Of a stretch of 25,713 nucleotides of DNA, positions 377-24,946 are shown piece after piece (position 1 is the stretch's first letter; each line of letters begins with the position of its first letter). The notes below the pieces were generated by a model. The model saw only the letters and a list, made by a program, of their open reading frames with translations, did not search any database and was not told the origin of the DNA. Origin of the DNA: a virus; IMG/VR virus record IMGVR_UViG_3300028548_001923, positions 1-25,713 of that record; one strand, given 5' to 3'. Made by a program: the position numbers and the translations under genes.

Positions 377-453
377 TGGCGCACTCGGCAGGACTCGAAC
401 CTGCAACCTACAGATTAGAAGTCTGTTGTTCTATCCAGTTGAACTACGAGTGC
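377..453 (-). tRNA. tRNA-Arg (UCU)
   Basis: This is a complete cloverleaf on the minus strand. The acceptor is GCACTCG/CGAGTGC, the D-arm stem is GTTC/GAAC, and the anticodon arm is ACAGA-CTTCTAA-TCTGT with anticodon TCT. The T-arm is GCAGG-TTCGAGT-CCTGC, followed by discriminator G and an encoded CCA (377-379). It reads AGA codons, which are common in the genes of this AT-leaning phage, so it probably supplements a scarce host tRNA. Its first 23 nt are also the 3' end of the upstream 72-codon gene. It should be released from the leftward transcript by host RNase P. Confidence 0.95.
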
Positions 454-3828: not shown

Positions 3829-4409
3829 TTACAACCATTGATATAGAAACTACAATGAACTTTAATTCAAAGACTGTATCATCTCCCTTCTTTGGCAATC
3901 AGATAGTGTTTGTTGGAGCGGTGGGTGTAATACCCGGATCATACTCTGAGGAGATAGAGGTATGGCTACACCATGATGCTATACCTGCAACAAAAGGTGG
4001 TGTAGAGAAGCTACAGTCTACTTTAAATAATACAAGCTGTCTTGTAGGACACAACTTAAAATTTGATTTACAGTGGTTAAGAGCATGTGGCTTTACCTAT
4101 GATGGTCCGCTGTTTGATACAATGATAGCTGAGTACCTTCTTGCTCGCGGCAATAAGATCAGTCTTAGCCTTGCTGCTTGCTGTACTAGGAGAGGGCTTT
4201 CAGAAAAGAGAAGCGATCTCACCGCAGAGTACATAAAGAACAAAGTATCCTATGAGAGTATGCCACCCCATGTAGTTAATCAGTACTGTATGAATGATGT
4301 TAGAATAACAAAACAATTAGCCGACATACAGATAGAGGAGTTTGGCAGACCTTGGAGTCATTATATTACCAGCCTACTTGAAGGAGTCCCCCATGCAAAA
4401 TGTGCTTGA
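3825..4409 (+). CDS. Stand-alone DnaQ/PolA-type 3'-5' exonuclease (proofreading)
   Basis: A 194-aa DEDDy exonuclease. Exo I is DIETT (Asp6, Glu8), Exo II is GHNLKFDLQWL (Asp81) and Exo III is Tyr154-x3-Asp158 (YCMND); all catalytic residues are present. In T7 and HMO-2011-like phages this domain is the N-terminus of the DNA polymerase. Here it stops with TGA at 4409, and the polymerase begins in a different frame at 4393. The two proteins probably associate for proofreading. The end (WSHYITSLLEGVPHAKCA) lies at the natural exo/polymerase domain border, so the exonuclease domain is complete and not truncated. Its ATG overlaps the helicase stop. Confidence 0.88.
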   Translation: MITTIDIETTMNFNSKTVSSPFFGNQIVFVGAVGVIPGSYSEEIEVWLHHDAIPATKGGVEKLQSTLNNTSCLVGHNLKFDLQWLRACGFTYDGPLFDTMIAEYLLARGNKISLSLAACCTRRGLSEKRSDLTAEYIKNKVSYESMPPHVVNQYCMNDVRITKQLADIQIEEFGRPWSHYITSLLEGVPHAKCA

Positions 4410-5952
4410 TCTGTCAATGGGTATGCTAGACGCTCTTATTGATATAGAGAGCGCAGGTATTAAGATTTCTAATGAAAAGCTTTCCAAGATTAAACTGCAG
4501 TATCAGAACGAATATAATAGTTTGTACAACGATCTTATGGCTATTGCGGAACGTGTTATGGGTGATAGCCCTATTAACCTTGACAGCCCTGATGATCGTA
4601 GCATACTACTATATTCCCGCAAAGTAGGGGACAAGGCTACTTGGAAAAGTACTTTTAATATTGGTACTGAGATCAGGAACAACACCAAGAAGCAAAAGAA
4701 TAAAACTAAAATGCACAGATCAGCCTTTGGTGCGCTTGTTAAAGAGCTAGCACCCGTGGTATATAAAACATCTGGTATGTCCTGCTCACACTGTAATGGT
4801 AGAGGCTCCTTTTACTACACAATAAAATCAGGTGAGAGAAGCAAGAACAAAAAGAACTGTAGCCGCTGTAACGGGGTGGGTATCCTGTATAGGAATCTTA
4901 AGGAACCAGCCGGTCTTAGGATAATACCCAGAGGGCCAGAAGACACTGCTGCTGGTGGCTTCAAGACAGACAAAGACACTTTAGTACAAATAAGACTGGA
5001 TTTAGAAGGTGATGCGAGGGAGTTTGTGGACAAATACATGAGATATTCCATGATCAGAACCTATCTGAATACCTTCGTGGATAGCTTGGAGAAGTATCAA
5101 GATGATAGGGGTTATATTCATCCTCAGTTTAATCAGTGCGTCACTGCTACTGGAAGATTGTCGTCAAGTAGACCAAACTTTCAAAATATGCCGCGCGGAA
5201 ACACATTCCCTGCAAGAGAGGCAATTGTTTCTAGGCATAGTGGTGGCTACATTCTAGAGGGAGACTATTCTCAGCTAGAGTTCAGGGTCGCAGGGTTCCT
5301 GTCAAAAGACCCCGTGATCTATGAAGAGGTCACTGCCGGGTATGACGTACACTCATACACAGCGAGCATCATGGGAGTGTCTAGGCAGGATGCCAAGGCG
5401 CATACCTTCAAGCCCCTGTACGGGGGTGTGCTTGGCACTAACAGAGAGATGGCTTACTATTCAGCCTTTAGAAATAAGTATCAGGCTGTATCTAAGTGGC
5501 ATGAAAGACTTCAAGATGAGGCTGTTAATACAAAGAAGGTTGTACTACCTTCTGGCAGAGAGTACTCCTTTCCCTACGCAAAGTATACAAGAAGGGGTAC
5601 TGCGGTCGGTGCTACAGCTATTAAAAACTATCCCGTTCAAGGATTTGCAACGGCTGACCTATTGCCATTAGCCCTTATACGGCTACATAAGAGCTTAAAG
5701 GCAGTTACCAAACCTAAGCTCTTGAGTAAGATAATAAACACAGTACACGATTCTATTGTCATGGATGTTCATCCTGACGAAAAAGATCAGATGATTAATT
5801 TAATGAAGGAGTCTATGCTATGTATACCTAAAGAATGTCACGCGAAGTTTGGTGTTGACTTTGATATGCCTATTGATATAGAATTAAAGATCGGCCATGA
5901 TTGGCTAAACCTACAGGAGATCAAATTAGATGAGCGCAGTAATGAAGATTGA
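4393..5952 (+). CDS. polA: Family A DNA polymerase with DnaJ-like zinc insertion
   Basis: A 519-aa polymerase lacking its own exonuclease domain. The frame is open from an ATG at 4342, but 4393 is chosen because AAGGAG lies 7 bases before it and the domain starts there (VLDLSMGMLDALIDIE). After the thumb region comes a zinc module with CSHCNGRG (Cys131, Cys134) and CSRCNGVG (Cys156, Cys159), the CxxCxGxG repeat of the DnaJ central domain as reported for HMO-2011 polymerase. Motif A is GDYSQLEFRV (Asp291). The O-helix is RQDAKAHTFKPLYGG with Arg331, Lys335, Phe339 and Tyr343. Motif C is VHDS (His452, Asp453). Phe339 corresponds to E. coli Phe762. It overlaps the exonuclease gene by 17 bases and the next gene by 23. 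There is no sign of loss of activity. Confidence 0.92.
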   Translation: MQNVLDLSMGMLDALIDIESAGIKISNEKLSKIKLQYQNEYNSLYNDLMAIAERVMGDSPINLDSPDDRSILLYSRKVGDKATWKSTFNIGTEIRNNTKKQKNKTKMHRSAFGALVKELAPVVYKTSGMSCSHCNGRGSFYYTIKSGERSKNKKNCSRCNGVGILYRNLKEPAGLRIIPRGPEDTAAGGFKTDKDTLVQIRLDLEGDAREFVDKYMRYSMIRTYLNTFVDSLEKYQDDRGYIHPQFNQCVTATGRLSSSRPNFQNMPRGNTFPAREAIVSRHSGGYILEGDYSQLEFRVAGFLSKDPVIYEEVTAGYDVHSYTASIMGVSRQDAKAHTFKPLYGGVLGTNREMAYYSAFRNKYQAVSKWHERLQDEAVNTKKVVLPSGREYSFPYAKYTRRGTAVGATAIKNYPVQGFATADLLPLALIRLHKSLKAVTKPKLLSKIINTVHDSIVMDVHPDEKDQMINLMKESMLCIPKECHAKFGVDFDMPIDIELKIGHDWLNLQEIKLDERSNED

Positions 5953-10964: not shown

Positions 10965-11291
10965 ATGAATAAGATTGTTCTATCAGTAGTGGGTATTGCT
11001 GCCTTCACTATGACCGTTGCTGCAGCAGCTATACCTAGTGACTGTGGTTATGATTCTGATGGTAATTTTCGTCTAGGGAATGGACAGGTAGCTTCCCACT
11101 CTACATGGGAACATGCTGCGGCGTGTGCTCATAAAGGTATTCTGCCACCCATTGTCGCAGAACGTCTAGGGCGTTGGGGTACTCTAGGAGAAAGGGTTGA
11201 GGCTAATTACCTTCGCTCAGTGAACACCCGAATCCAAGAGGAGAAGAGAAAAAGAGAAGTTGAAGTACAACCTCTTCCTCTTATTAAATAA
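10965..11291 (+). CDS. Small secreted/periplasmic hypothetical protein
   Basis: A 108-aa protein with a Sec signal peptide: MNKIVLSVVGIAAFTMTVAAAA, with likely cleavage near residue 22. The mature part has two cysteines (Cys27, Cys54) that could form a disulfide, an AHKGILPPIVAERLGRWG segment and a Lys/Arg/Glu-rich helix at the end. AGGAG lies about 8 bases before the ATG. No family is recognised. An exported protein is odd inside a replication and nucleotide operon. If expressed early it could act in the periplasm during takeover, for example against superinfection, but that is a guess. Confidence 0.65.
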   Translation: MNKIVLSVVGIAAFTMTVAAAAIPSDCGYDSDGNFRLGNGQVASHSTWEHAAACAHKGILPPIVAERLGRWGTLGERVEANYLRSVNTRIQEEKRKREVEVQPLPLIK

Positions 11292-11761
11292 TGATACACG
11301 AAGTTCAGATAACCGGGGACATGCGCCGACTAGCTGAACGCAAGGCTACTATCTTGGGGGAGCTAAATAACTCTATAGAGAGGGGCGCGGGTTCTCAGTC
11401 TGGATACTTGGGGGAGATGATAGTTGTAAGCGTTCTGGGTGGCTCTCACGAAAACACCTTCGACTACGATGTTGCTCTTGAAGACGGAACAACAATTGAT
11501 GTAAAAACTAAAAGAGTATCTTCTCCCCCAAAAGATTACTATGCTTGCTCAGTTGCTAAGTTTAATGCCAAACAGAAGTGTGACTCGTATGCTTTTGTCA
11601 GAATTATGAATAATATGTCTGTTGGCTGGTACTTAGGAAAGATAGACAAAGATAAGTTCTTCAGCCTCTCCACTGAACATGTACGAGGTGAAACTGATCC
11701 AGATAACGGTTTTGTTTTTAGAGCAGACTGTTACAACTTGCCAATAGCCCTGCTAGAGTAA
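11291..11761 (+). CDS. PD-(D/E)XK restriction-endonuclease-like protein
   Basis: A 156-aa protein with the sequence hallmarks of the restriction-endonuclease fold. An early helix has Glu42 (GYLGEMIV), followed by FDYDVALEDG (Asp58/Asp60) and then IDVKTK (Asp70-x-Lys72), the D...(D/E)xK core. Strands and a Trp-rich tail (GWYLGKIDKDKFF) follow. Proteins of this shape occur widely in phage replication modules, and some act as nucleases on host or branched DNA; the substrate here is unknown. It starts on the stop of the secreted protein gene (TAATG) and is followed four bases later by the last gene of the operon. Confidence 0.65.
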   Translation: MIHEVQITGDMRRLAERKATILGELNNSIERGAGSQSGYLGEMIVVSVLGGSHENTFDYDVALEDGTTIDVKTKRVSSPPKDYYACSVAKFNAKQKCDSYAFVRIMNNMSVGWYLGKIDKDKFFSLSTEHVRGETDPDNGFVFRADCYNLPIALLE

Positions 11762-11765
11762 GACA

Positions 11766-11993
11766 ATGACTAAAAAACCTGACGCCCTTTTATATAAGAT
11801 GTCCGTTTCTATTACAACGGGTGGTCACATAGCCTTGGATTTTGAGGGACCGCCTTCAGCTAAAGATATTGAAAGTATTTTTGATAGCTGGAATCCTGAC
11901 TTTGAACACACAAAAAAAATAGTCTCGCTGGTAAATTACCTACGAGACTATAGTGATCAACAGTACAGGGACTTAAAAGGAGTTATTTACTAG
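11766..11993 (+). CDS. Last gene of the rightward operon, hypothetical
   Basis: A 75-aa soluble protein (MTKKPDALLYKMSVSITTGGHIALDFEGPP) with an N-terminal strand pair and two C-terminal helices (IESIFDSWNPDFEHTKKIV, LVNYLRDYSDQQYRDLKG). No family is recognised. Its 3' end holds the hairpin of the leftward terminator (11920-11950), which therefore encodes part of the second helix. Its stop codon overlaps the opposing lipoprotein gene by 11 bases. The ribosome site is poor (GAGTAAGA), so translation may depend on coupling. Confidence 0.6.
   Translation: MTKKPDALLYKMSVSITTGGHIALDFEGPPSAKDIESIFDSWNPDFEHTKKIVSLVNYLRDYSDQQYRDLKGVIY
11912..11950 (-). terminator. Intrinsic terminator of the leftward late operon
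   Basis: On the minus strand TAGTCTCG pairs perfectly with CGAGACTA (11943-11950 with 11920-11927). The 15-base loop contains a possible inner GGT/ACC stem, and eight T residues follow directly (11912-11919). It lies about 33 bases after the stop of the last leftward gene (11983). It is wholly inside the opposing 75-codon gene. Confidence 0.85.
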
Positions 11994-12384
11994 GGGTTTT
12001 TACAACCTCTTTTGGCGTTACCGCCTTTTCATAGTAGATAATCAATTCCTTTTGCTGTTGAATAAACCTTTTTAGTTCCGACATATTCAAGGCAAGTGTT
12101 TCGTAGTCTCTTACACTTATTGCGTAGAATAAAAAGTCACCATTTTCTTTTGAGAATCTTTCTTTAAATTCTTGAAAGTTATTCTCATTGACAACATAGA
12201 AGTATAGCCCATTCATGTCCACAGGTCGCGGACGATTTTGAATGGGTATTTTTCTTTCTACTTCTACCGTCTTAACCTCTAACGGCATGATCTTTTTAAA
12301 GGTACTACAACCACTACTTAATAGTAGGAGCGGGGGCAGCACCAGAAATAATTTCCAGTGACCTAAGCAATTTCTTAGTTCCAT
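11983..12384 (-). CDS. Outer-membrane lipoprotein, candidate o-spanin (Rz1-like)
   Basis: A 133-aa lipoprotein. The signal is a hydrophobic stretch LFLVLPPLLLL ending in a lipobox-like LSSGC, with lipidation expected at Cys26. The mature part has EVKTVEVERKIPIQNRPRPVD, a globular segment (LYFYVVNENNFQEFKERF) and a long helix (MSELKRFIQQQKELIIYYEKAV). It begins inside the upstream coiled-coil membrane gene in another frame, with 71 bases of overlap, the arrangement typical of Rz/Rz1 spanin pairs that fuse inner and outer membranes at lysis. It is longer than classic Rz1. The globular segment and helix match a protein common in marine phages without proven function. Its last codons carry the rightward terminators. 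Confidence 0.68.
   Translation of the reverse strand: MELRNCLGHWKLFLVLPPLLLLSSGCSTFKKIMPLEVKTVEVERKIPIQNRPRPVDMNGLYFYVVNENNFQEFKERFSKENGDFLFYAISVRDYETLALNMSELKRFIQQQKELIIYYEKAVTPKEVVKTPSK
11992..12013 (+). terminator. First candidate terminator of the rightward operon
   Basis: AGGGGTT (11992-11998) pairs with AACCTCT (12004-12010), with one G-U pair and a 5-base loop, and is followed by TTT. It begins inside the stop codon of the last rightward gene. The T-run is short, so it may work only with the second hairpin just downstream. It overlaps the 3' end of the leftward lipoprotein gene. Confidence 0.5.
12014..12029 (+). terminator. Second candidate hairpin-T element of the rightward operon
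   Basis: GGCG-TTAC-CGCC (12014-12025) followed by TTTT. The stem is short but all G-C. Tandem placement after the first hairpin suggests the two act together to stop rightward transcripts. Confidence 0.4.
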
Positions 12385-12715
12385 TGTTTATTTTCTTTTC
12401 TACTAATTTAGGTTTCTTAAGGCTAAGAGCCGCCAGATTATGCTTTCTTAATTTATTTATAAGAACATCTCTATAACTATTAGCCTTATCTAGTCTGGCG
12501 TTAAGATCTTTGGTCAACGCGGCAAACTTTTCCCTGTCTTCTATCATCGTGTTGATGGTTTGGTCCTGTAGTTTTTTGGCTACTTTAAGTTTTGCGCCAT
12601 TCTCTGTAAGCACTTGGATACGTTCTTGTGTATCTTTATAGTAGTAGTAAGCACCATATCCTGCACTCCCTACAAACCCAAGGACTAATATTAAAAGATA
12701 TACCTTTAGCATCAC
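12314..12715 (-). CDS. Membrane-anchored coiled-coil protein, candidate i-spanin (Rz-like)
   Basis: A 133-aa protein with an N-terminal membrane anchor (residues about 4-24, VYLLILVLGFVGSAGYGAYY) and a periplasmic coiled coil (about 27-100, DTQERIQVLTENGAKLKVAKK and onward). A basic, Pro-ending tail follows (KKINNGTKKLLRSLE...PAPTIK). This topology is that of inner-membrane spanins. The lipoprotein gene starting within its 3' end supports the pairing. The spanin complex would act last in lysis, after holin and endolysin. It overlaps the upstream EF-hand gene by 4 bases. Confidence 0.72.
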   Translation of the reverse strand: MMLKVYLLILVLGFVGSAGYGAYYYYKDTQERIQVLTENGAKLKVAKKLQDQTINTMIEDREKFAALTKDLNARLDKANSYRDVLINKLRKHNLAALSLKKPKLVEKKINNGTKKLLRSLEIISGAAPAPTIK

Positions 12716-13029
12716 TTACCCTTTGACATATAAGCTGTCATCCCCATGTAAGCGCCACAAACGGAAGCCATTCCTATATAGAATAACCCAAATAGATCGG
12801 CTAATGCTTTAATCCGAGTATCTGGAAATATAGGCAGGAATACGAGAGCAGTAAAGATTAGCATAGATACCATAGCCACCCATGCCATTTTCTTCTGGGC
12901 GTCCATCTTATCTCGTTTTTCAATTGCTTCAAGAGTTTTAATCTCCTGATCGCTAACGATACCATCCCCGTCTAGGTCTAGCTCGTTAAACTCACTATCC
13001 TGTTGTAGTGTTTTCTGTTCATCTGCCAT
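12712..13029 (-). CDS. EF-hand membrane protein in the lysis cluster (holin candidate)
   Basis: A 105-aa protein with one canonical 12-residue EF-hand loop: Asp18, Asp20, Asp22, Gly23, Val25 and Glu29 (DLDGDGIVSDQE). After a charged helix come two membrane segments (about 50-68 and 78-100). The Ca2+-binding residues are complete. The short length, two membrane spans and position upstream of the spanin pair suggest a holin or lysis regulator. The EF-hand would be cytoplasmic if both ends are inside, so a calcium signal could matter. Related EF-hand/two-helix proteins occur in other marine phages, with unknown role. The start at 13029 has a GGGGGAA sequence just upstream. Confidence 0.7.
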   Translation of the reverse strand: MADEQKTLQQDSEFNELDLDGDGIVSDQEIKTLEAIEKRDKMDAQKKMAWVAMVSMLIFTALVFLPIFPDTRIKALADLFGLFYIGMASVCGAYMGMTAYMSKGK

Positions 13030-23695: not shown

Positions 23696-24946
23696 CTATT
23701 TCCACTGTAATTGAATAAAAGCATCATGTGTTCCATTAGATTGACCAAACAATGTGTAGTCTGTTAAAGGATTAGCCATACTCCTATTGTCCTGTATAGT
23801 TGTACGGGGGAAGAATCCTTGAGTATCCTGTATAGCCACCCCTGTATTTATTTTACCGGCTATAATATTCATAATGACTAGTGTTGTGGTTTGATTAGCC
23901 GCACTGTATCTTTGGCTAGGGGCTATTTTCTTTACAACTCTTTGAGCGGCTGCTTTTACTTTCTGTTGTCTTGTTTGGGGACGGGGGGTAGCTGCTACTT
24001 CCACCTCTACTTCTGGTTCTACTTCCGCCTCTACTTCTGGTTCTACTTCCACCTCTACTTCTGGTTCTACTTCCACCTCTACTTCCGGTTCAACCCGTGT
24101 TTCCATTTCCGGTTCTGGCTGTTGCACTTCTAGTTCAGCCTCTACTGCTGCTTCCGCCTGCGCTTCCTGCTGCATTTGTTCAGGCTGCTGTTGAGGGGAA
24201 ACAATCATTTCAATAGAGGGTGGTGGTGGTGGTGCAGGGCCTTCAGTTTCTATTGAAGCCATCTGCATCCCCATAGGAGAGGTAGAGGGTGAAGGCATAG
24301 GCTCAATTTCAGCTTGCGGTGGCGGTGGTGGAGGAGGAGCAGTAGCAATCTCCATATCAATTAGTATTAGCTGGTCTGTTATTTGTTGCTCAATTAAACC
24401 TTGATAGGCAAAAGTTAAACTGGGGTTAGAGAAGACAGGTCCATACATACCTGAGTGATATCCAGCATCTATTCCATATAGTGAAAAACTACCCGTTAGC
24501 ACACCAAAAGTATTTGATGCAATATTATCAGTAAATGTGTAATCTTTTAAACCGTCAAAATCTAATTCAATCTCTCTGGTATACTTCCAAGCTACATCAC
24601 TACCATCAAACAAGGTAATACCTAAATTGACTATATCTCTGCAGTCACTAGCCTGTGTTATACTGGTACAGGTATCTAAATAAGCATTACTTGAATGGCT
24701 ATCAACTGTTACAGCGCTGTTTATACTGAAACCACTTTGGACTTCTGCTTCTGTAAGAGGAACAGTAAAAGTACTTGTATATGTTCCTCCTCCATTTGCG
24801 ACATTTCCCGTACCACCAGTAGAATTAGTTGAATTACTTTTTGTAAATTGAGACAGGTTAGGCAATACGTTTTCAGTTGTAACCGTTTCGGCAGCAACAG
24901 GTGCTACAAAAGCCAAGAGAAAAAACAAGAGCCATGTCAATCCCAT
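23696..24946 (-). CDS. Exported protein with Pro-rich and EPEVEVEV-repeat stalk
   Basis: A 416-aa protein with a clear Sec signal peptide (MGLTWLLFFLLAFVAPVAA, cleavage near residue 19). A Ser/Thr/Asn-rich, strand-rich domain spans about 20-200 and holds two cysteines. Two poly-Pro runs follow, then a Gln/Glu-rich segment and an acidic repeat stalk of PEVEVEVE units (about 286-317). A basic segment (RQQKVKAAAQRVVKKI) precedes a C-terminal domain of about 70 residues. Pro/Glu stalks like this span the periplasm in TonB and related proteins, so the molecule may bridge envelope layers; this is inference. It overlaps the exported 185-aa gene by 10 bases. The family also occurs in other marine phages, with no function known to me. 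Confidence 0.6.
   Translation of the reverse strand: MGLTWLLFFLLAFVAPVAAETVTTENVLPNLSQFTKSNSTNSTGGTGNVANGGGTYTSTFTVPLTEAEVQSGFSINSAVTVDSHSSNAYLDTCTSITQASDCRDIVNLGITLFDGSDVAWKYTREIELDFDGLKDYTFTDNIASNTFGVLTGSFSLYGIDAGYHSGMYGPVFSNPSLTFAYQGLIEQQITDQLILIDMEIATAPPPPPPPQAEIEPMPSPSTSPMGMQMASIETEGPAPPPPPSIEMIVSPQQQPEQMQQEAQAEAAVEAELEVQQPEPEMETRVEPEVEVEVEPEVEVEVEPEVEAEVEPEVEVEVAATPRPQTRQQKVKAAAQRVVKKIAPSQRYSAANQTTTLVIMNIIAGKINTGVAIQDTQGFFPRTTIQDNRSMANPLTDYTLFGQSNGTHDAFIQLQWK
23995..24090 (-). repeat. Four tandem 24-bp coding repeats
   Basis: The plus-strand unit is CTACTTCCACCTCTACTTCTGGTT, four contiguous copies differing only at one or two bases (a G in copy 2, a C in copy 4). Each unit encodes eight residues of the type EPEVEVEV. 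The near-identity of copies points to recent slippage and likely length variation between relatives. Confidence 0.9.

Follow-up and report, generated by a model that had tools for sequence, protein, structure and literature searches.

A putative leftward terminator on the antisense strand of the opposing operon's last gene in an uncultured phage

Comparison of the convergent early/late junction of an uncultured phage with related loci indicates that the leftward virion and lysis operon very probably ends at a strong, one-way intrinsic terminator that is under selection and lies antisense within the gene that closes the rightward operon. Rightward transcripts, by the same reading, have no conserved intrinsic stop.

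The junction and the anatomy of the leftward terminator

The window analysed is a 25.7 kb fragment (25,713 nt) of an uncultured marine phage (IMGVR_UViG_3300028548_001923). Its DNA polymerase ORF (4342-5952) contains a DnaJ-like CxxCxGxG insertion (CSHCNGRG...CSRCNGVG), and the cultured polymerases nearest to it are those of Pelagibacter phage HTVC033P and the Roseobacter CRP phages. A DNA polymerase with an inserted DnaJ-like zinc motif has been described for the HMO-2011 group (PMC9038755), and the presence of this motif indicates that the window phage is related to that group. A tRNA-Arg gene (anticodon TCT) near the left end of the window (377-453, minus strand) was the sole match in an Rfam search. 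On the virion side, the gene at 23696-24946 contains a long Glu-Val-Pro repeat stretch (EVEVEVEPEVEVEVEPE).

The rightward genes, which end at 11993, serve replication and nucleotide metabolism; the leftward genes, for virion and lysis functions, end at 11983. The initial annotation had described convergent operons overlapping by 11 bases, which the ORF coordinates confirm; in relatives the coding regions overlap by 8 or 11 bases. The features of the junction are:

11766-11993, plus strand: 75-aa gene, last of the rightward operon and host of the putative embedded antisense terminator (ORF list, 53 related loci)
11912-11919, minus strand: T8 run (A8 on the plus strand) completing the putative leftward terminator (sequence; invariant in 12 distinct versions)
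11919-11951, minus strand: stem-loop of the putative leftward intrinsic terminator, inside the 75-aa gene (-17.2 kcal/mol, z -4.3)
11983-11993, no strand assigned: tail-to-tail overlap of both coding regions, 11 bases (ORF list)
11983-12384, minus strand: o-spanin lipoprotein (Rz1-like), 133 aa, last of the leftward operon (PHROG 812 Rz-like spanin, E 3.5e-10)

A 156-aa ORF (11291-11761) immediately precedes the 75-aa gene, and in it DYDVALEDGTTIDVKTK resembles the PD-(D/E)XK nuclease core; Pfam and PHROG searches with this ORF gave no match. In the lysis cassette, a 105-aa protein (12712-13029) has an EF-hand-like DLDGDGIVSD motif, below the Pfam cut-off, and a weak match to a holin family (PHROG 3427).

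On the minus strand, positions 11951-11919 form a perfect stem of 9-10 bp, followed by a 1x1 mismatch, four more pairs and a 3-base loop. The T8 run (11919-11912) abuts the stem, the outermost pair of the 10-bp version using its first T. A leftward terminator with T8 inside the rightward gene had been claimed, and is found here; the 8-bp stem given for it needs correction to the structure above. None of 200 shuffles was as stable as this hairpin, and the U run follows directly after the stem. Among hairpin-plus-T candidates on both strands of the whole window, the site ranks first (score 38.05). Its D score is +27 to +34; the formula is reportedly that of d'Aubenton-Carafa, with a usual threshold of zero. 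The score of the site was reached by none of 2000 synonymous recodings of the 75-aa gene (best 37.1) and by none of 2000 codon-permuted versions (best 36.7). The closest recodings come within about 1 point, so the 75-aa protein sequence itself permits a fairly good hairpin.

Like an intrinsic (Rho-independent) terminator, the site has a stable hairpin followed by U8 shortly past the last stop codon of the operon. In the proposed mechanism, RNA polymerase, most likely that of the host because no phage RNA polymerase was seen in the 25.7 kb fragment, would pass the o-spanin stop at 11983 and transcribe about 33 more bases, whereupon the hairpin would form. Leftward transcription would then cease within U8, near 11912 and some 70 bases beyond the o-spanin stop. 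A hairpin starting 33 bases past this stop should be clear of the terminating ribosome. If the leftward terminator works, the geometry implies an antisense overlap of at least 82 nt (11912-11993), and the late mRNA would have as its 3' tail the complement of the final 82 or more bases of the 75-aa gene. On the plus strand, the palindrome is followed by AGTGATC and has no T run, so that the pair of T runs, one on each strand, that marks a bidirectional terminator is absent. Lacking a T run and lying in translated sequence, the plus-strand palindrome should not stop rightward transcription.

Conservation of the leftward element

A search for the 75-aa family yielded 53 viral contigs, with 36 distinct complete ORFs and 12 distinct terminator sequences. 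The leftward terminator was present in all 53 contigs carrying the gene, a set that is biased when taken alone because one of the two peptide patterns used sits in the terminator. A search for relatives through the o-spanin is independent of the 75-aa gene and free of this bias. All scanned complete relatives found in this way that have the 75-aa gene carried the same hairpin at an unchanged position relative to the o-spanin stop (-33 to -63), and no hairpin was found at this position in o-spanin relatives with a different neighbour gene. A DNA pattern for the terminator returned 52 stretches, every one on a contig already in the 75-aa family.

Across the 12 terminator versions the T8 run is always present, the seven outer stem pairs are invariant, and the next pair is always a standard one. 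Covariation in the stem is modest, with two pairs changed on both sides and no clear excess over shuffles. One is an inner pair that flips from G-C to C-G in L132-L134, accompanying an Arg to Gly change, and that is mismatched in 3 of the 12 versions; the other is a G-C to A-U change. Disruption of the stems in relatives with the same gene order had been named in the initial annotation as a refutation; the leftward stem persists in them, and neither rightward one does.

Support for the putative leftward terminator comes from frozen codons and not from covariation. The codons ACA AAA AAA ATA GTC and GAC TAT are identical in all 36 distinct ORFs, and every other degenerate residue of the gene varies among them. 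The AAA AAA that encodes the T8 run is fixed throughout, whereas AAA and AAG alternate elsewhere in the gene. Compared with three close relatives, synonymous divergence was 0.00 in the 14 terminator codons versus 0.55-0.78 elsewhere. Among 14 representatives, the terminator block ranked lowest of 61 sliding blocks for synonymous divergence (0.23 versus up to 0.81). The earlier claim that the protein segment here is also constrained at the nucleotide level is thus borne out by zero synonymous divergence and frozen codons.

Conservation of the block could instead reflect the protein, with TKKIVSLVxYLxDY being a functional helix and the hairpin a by-product. This peptide is invariant across all relatives and is modelled within a long helix, and fair hairpins remain possible in recoded versions. 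Protein constraint does not freeze synonymous sites, which are undiverged here and almost saturated elsewhere in the gene, nor does it account for AAA AAA being kept at the T8 run in all ORFs. We consider a purely protein-level explanation very improbable. The preferred reading is that selection would maintain the terminator at the nucleotide level within coding sequence, and in place despite exchange of the gene that it serves.

That exchange is seen directly, as the last leftward gene varies between an o-spanin, a 61-aa ORF and a holin while the leftward terminator is unmoved. In L124-L129, the extra 61-aa ORF separates the o-spanin from the junction. L130 and L131 lack spanin genes at this place, and a 3TM holin (PF11351, PHROG 3427) is last. 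Throughout L124-L131, the terminator persists, and 8 bases are shared between the 75-aa gene and whichever leftward gene comes last. The lysis cassette at the junction of these loci is exchanged among a spanin pair, a spanin pair plus the 61-aa ORF, and the 3TM holin. The ribonucleotide reductase of their rightward operon is also of another class: a class I small subunit is encoded close to the junction, as against the B12-dependent enzyme of the window.

A further alternative, favoured by an inverted repeat that is near-perfect on either strand and conserved as DNA, is that the palindrome serves as an operator bound by a protein, or as a hairpin shielding the 3' end of a message that is terminated at another site. 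The conserved block, however, has T8 on one side only, correctly placed for a leftward U-tract, and it keeps a constant distance from the leftward stop codon though the leftward gene differs. Such a role for the palindrome, in place of termination, is extremely unlikely.

Outside the terminator, the 75-aa gene has a pN/pS of 0.42, which argues that the ORF is a real gene. No match to its product was found in Pfam and PHROG or by tblastn against cultured phages, and no relative was found in the bacterial genomes searched. An AlphaFold model (pLDDT 72) has two strands and two helices; it gave one structural match, to an uncharacterised protein of an uncultured virus, and no convincing match in the PDB. 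Profile alignment with HTVC033P gp33 covered 36 columns (hhalign probability 41%), which is suggestive of a possible distant homologue, short of established homology. Tentatively, the 75-aa gene might be a boundary element, its TKKIVSLVxYLxDY region largely dictated by the antisense terminator, that stays at the junction as an insulator while flanking genes are exchanged; we regard this as a possibility with the balance against it.

Rightward transcription

Three candidate rightward elements lie beyond the end of the 75-aa coding region or at its last bases:

11992-12010, plus strand: first rightward hairpin-T element of the initial annotation; weak, not conserved (-6.5 kcal/mol)
12014-12025, plus strand: second rightward hairpin-T element of the initial annotation; weak, not conserved (-5.7 kcal/mol)
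12205-12248, plus strand: stronger candidate for a rightward terminator, midway through the o-spanin gene (second-best hairpin-plus-T site of the window)

The first two, which had been placed in the lipoprotein gene, exist as drawn; their proposed function is not upheld, as both are weak and not conserved. A symmetrical arrangement, in which the terminator of either operon is concealed within the final gene of the opposing one (the rightward terminator at 11992-12025) and the complementary message tails tune stability, draws on these two small hairpins and the T4 that follows. Their D scores are -39 to -19, under the usual zero line, and their T runs derive from the lysine-rich o-spanin C-terminus. 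On one score, 58% of synonymous recodings were equally good (P 0.58); on a length-normalised score the second hairpin was unusual, with 0 of 250 recodings as good. On these two small hairpins, the additive terminator score and the D score disagree. Somewhat better hairpins occur near the same place in L090 and L135, and some cultured relatives have two crossed terminators. The hairpins at 11992-12025 are absent or different in most relatives, so that a stable hairpin with a U run, conserved together with the gene order, is not found there. With both rightward stems failing conservation, the claimed symmetry is not supported, and we judge the symmetrical arrangement unlikely.

The candidate at 12205-12248 (-15.3 kcal/mol, T5, D +3.4) was equalled by none of 300 synonymous recodings; it was found in the lineage of the window only, and not in relatives. 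In 23 representatives, the interval between the junction and +330 was searched for rightward terminators against a null of synonymous recodings; significant sites came only from the window (12205-12248) and from the L082/L083 lineage, which has a different one (+275 to +307), with L090 and L135 marginal. No conserved rightward terminator was found in this interval among the 23 representatives, and most lineages had none at all. On the preferred reading of a one-way leftward terminator, rightward transcripts probably end at lineage-specific hairpins deeper in the lysis genes, through the action of Rho, or through encounters with polymerases moving leftward.

Cultured relatives and known systems

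At the corresponding junction, cultured phages related to the window carry strong terminators, a point in favour of the leftward reading, and differ in their arrangement. HMO-2011, CRP-1 and CRP-345 have a single hairpin with flanking A and T runs in the intergenic gap, CRP-2 and CRP-207 resemble them, with a hairpin at a gap of some 30 bases, and the record of Lentibacter phage ICBM2 annotates a bidirectional terminator at its convergent junction. The bidirectional terminators of HMO-2011, CRP-1, CRP-345 and ICBM2 lie at the same early/late junction as the element in the window and would do the same job for the leftward operon. Hairpins of the HMO-2011 type occupy or adjoin the gap, are flanked on each side by A and T runs and serve both directions, whereas the window has a T run on one side and no gap.

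CRP-3, CRP-212 and HTVC033P have two crossed, strong, one-way terminators. As in the window, their leftward terminator overlaps or is upstream of the end of the rightward transcript; in contrast to the family of the window, in which none is conserved, they have a strong rightward terminator nearby. The leftward terminators of CRP-3 (L189, 5683-5708) and CRP-212 (L190, 5796-5821) overlap or lie inside the last codons of the rightward gene, that of CRP-212 being inside them. From their sequences, CRP-3 and CRP-212 appear to be a second case of the embedded-terminator layout. In HTVC033P, the annotated ORF gp34 (L188, 6064-6234), which is preceded by gp33, covers both crossed terminators and has its stop past the rightward one, which makes it probable that gp34 does not represent a genuine gene.

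Convergent transcripts whose 3' UTRs overlap, excludons, and termination that depends on collision have been described in bacteria (PMC7154746, PMC13082048), and a case of overlapping convergent transcripts has been described in Rickettsia (PMC3027695). Like these systems, the window has a hairpin near the junction and an expected antisense overlap; theirs rest on RNA data, whereas that of the window is predicted from sequence conservation. Overlapping convergent transcripts and hairpin-positioned collisions being known in bacteria, the general kind of arrangement is not new. Our literature searches returned convergent 3' overlap as a known theme and no report of this element. What appears to be unusual here is the depth of codon-level conservation within a gene, together with the retention of the element as the genes around it change.

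The junction offers a clear case of the same bases encoding a transcription stop signal on one strand and a protein on the other, both visibly under selection. The related phages provide a natural comparison series, from a shared hairpin in the gap, through crossed hairpins, to an embedded hairpin. In compact phage genomes, scans restricted to intergenic gaps can miss the terminators of late operons.
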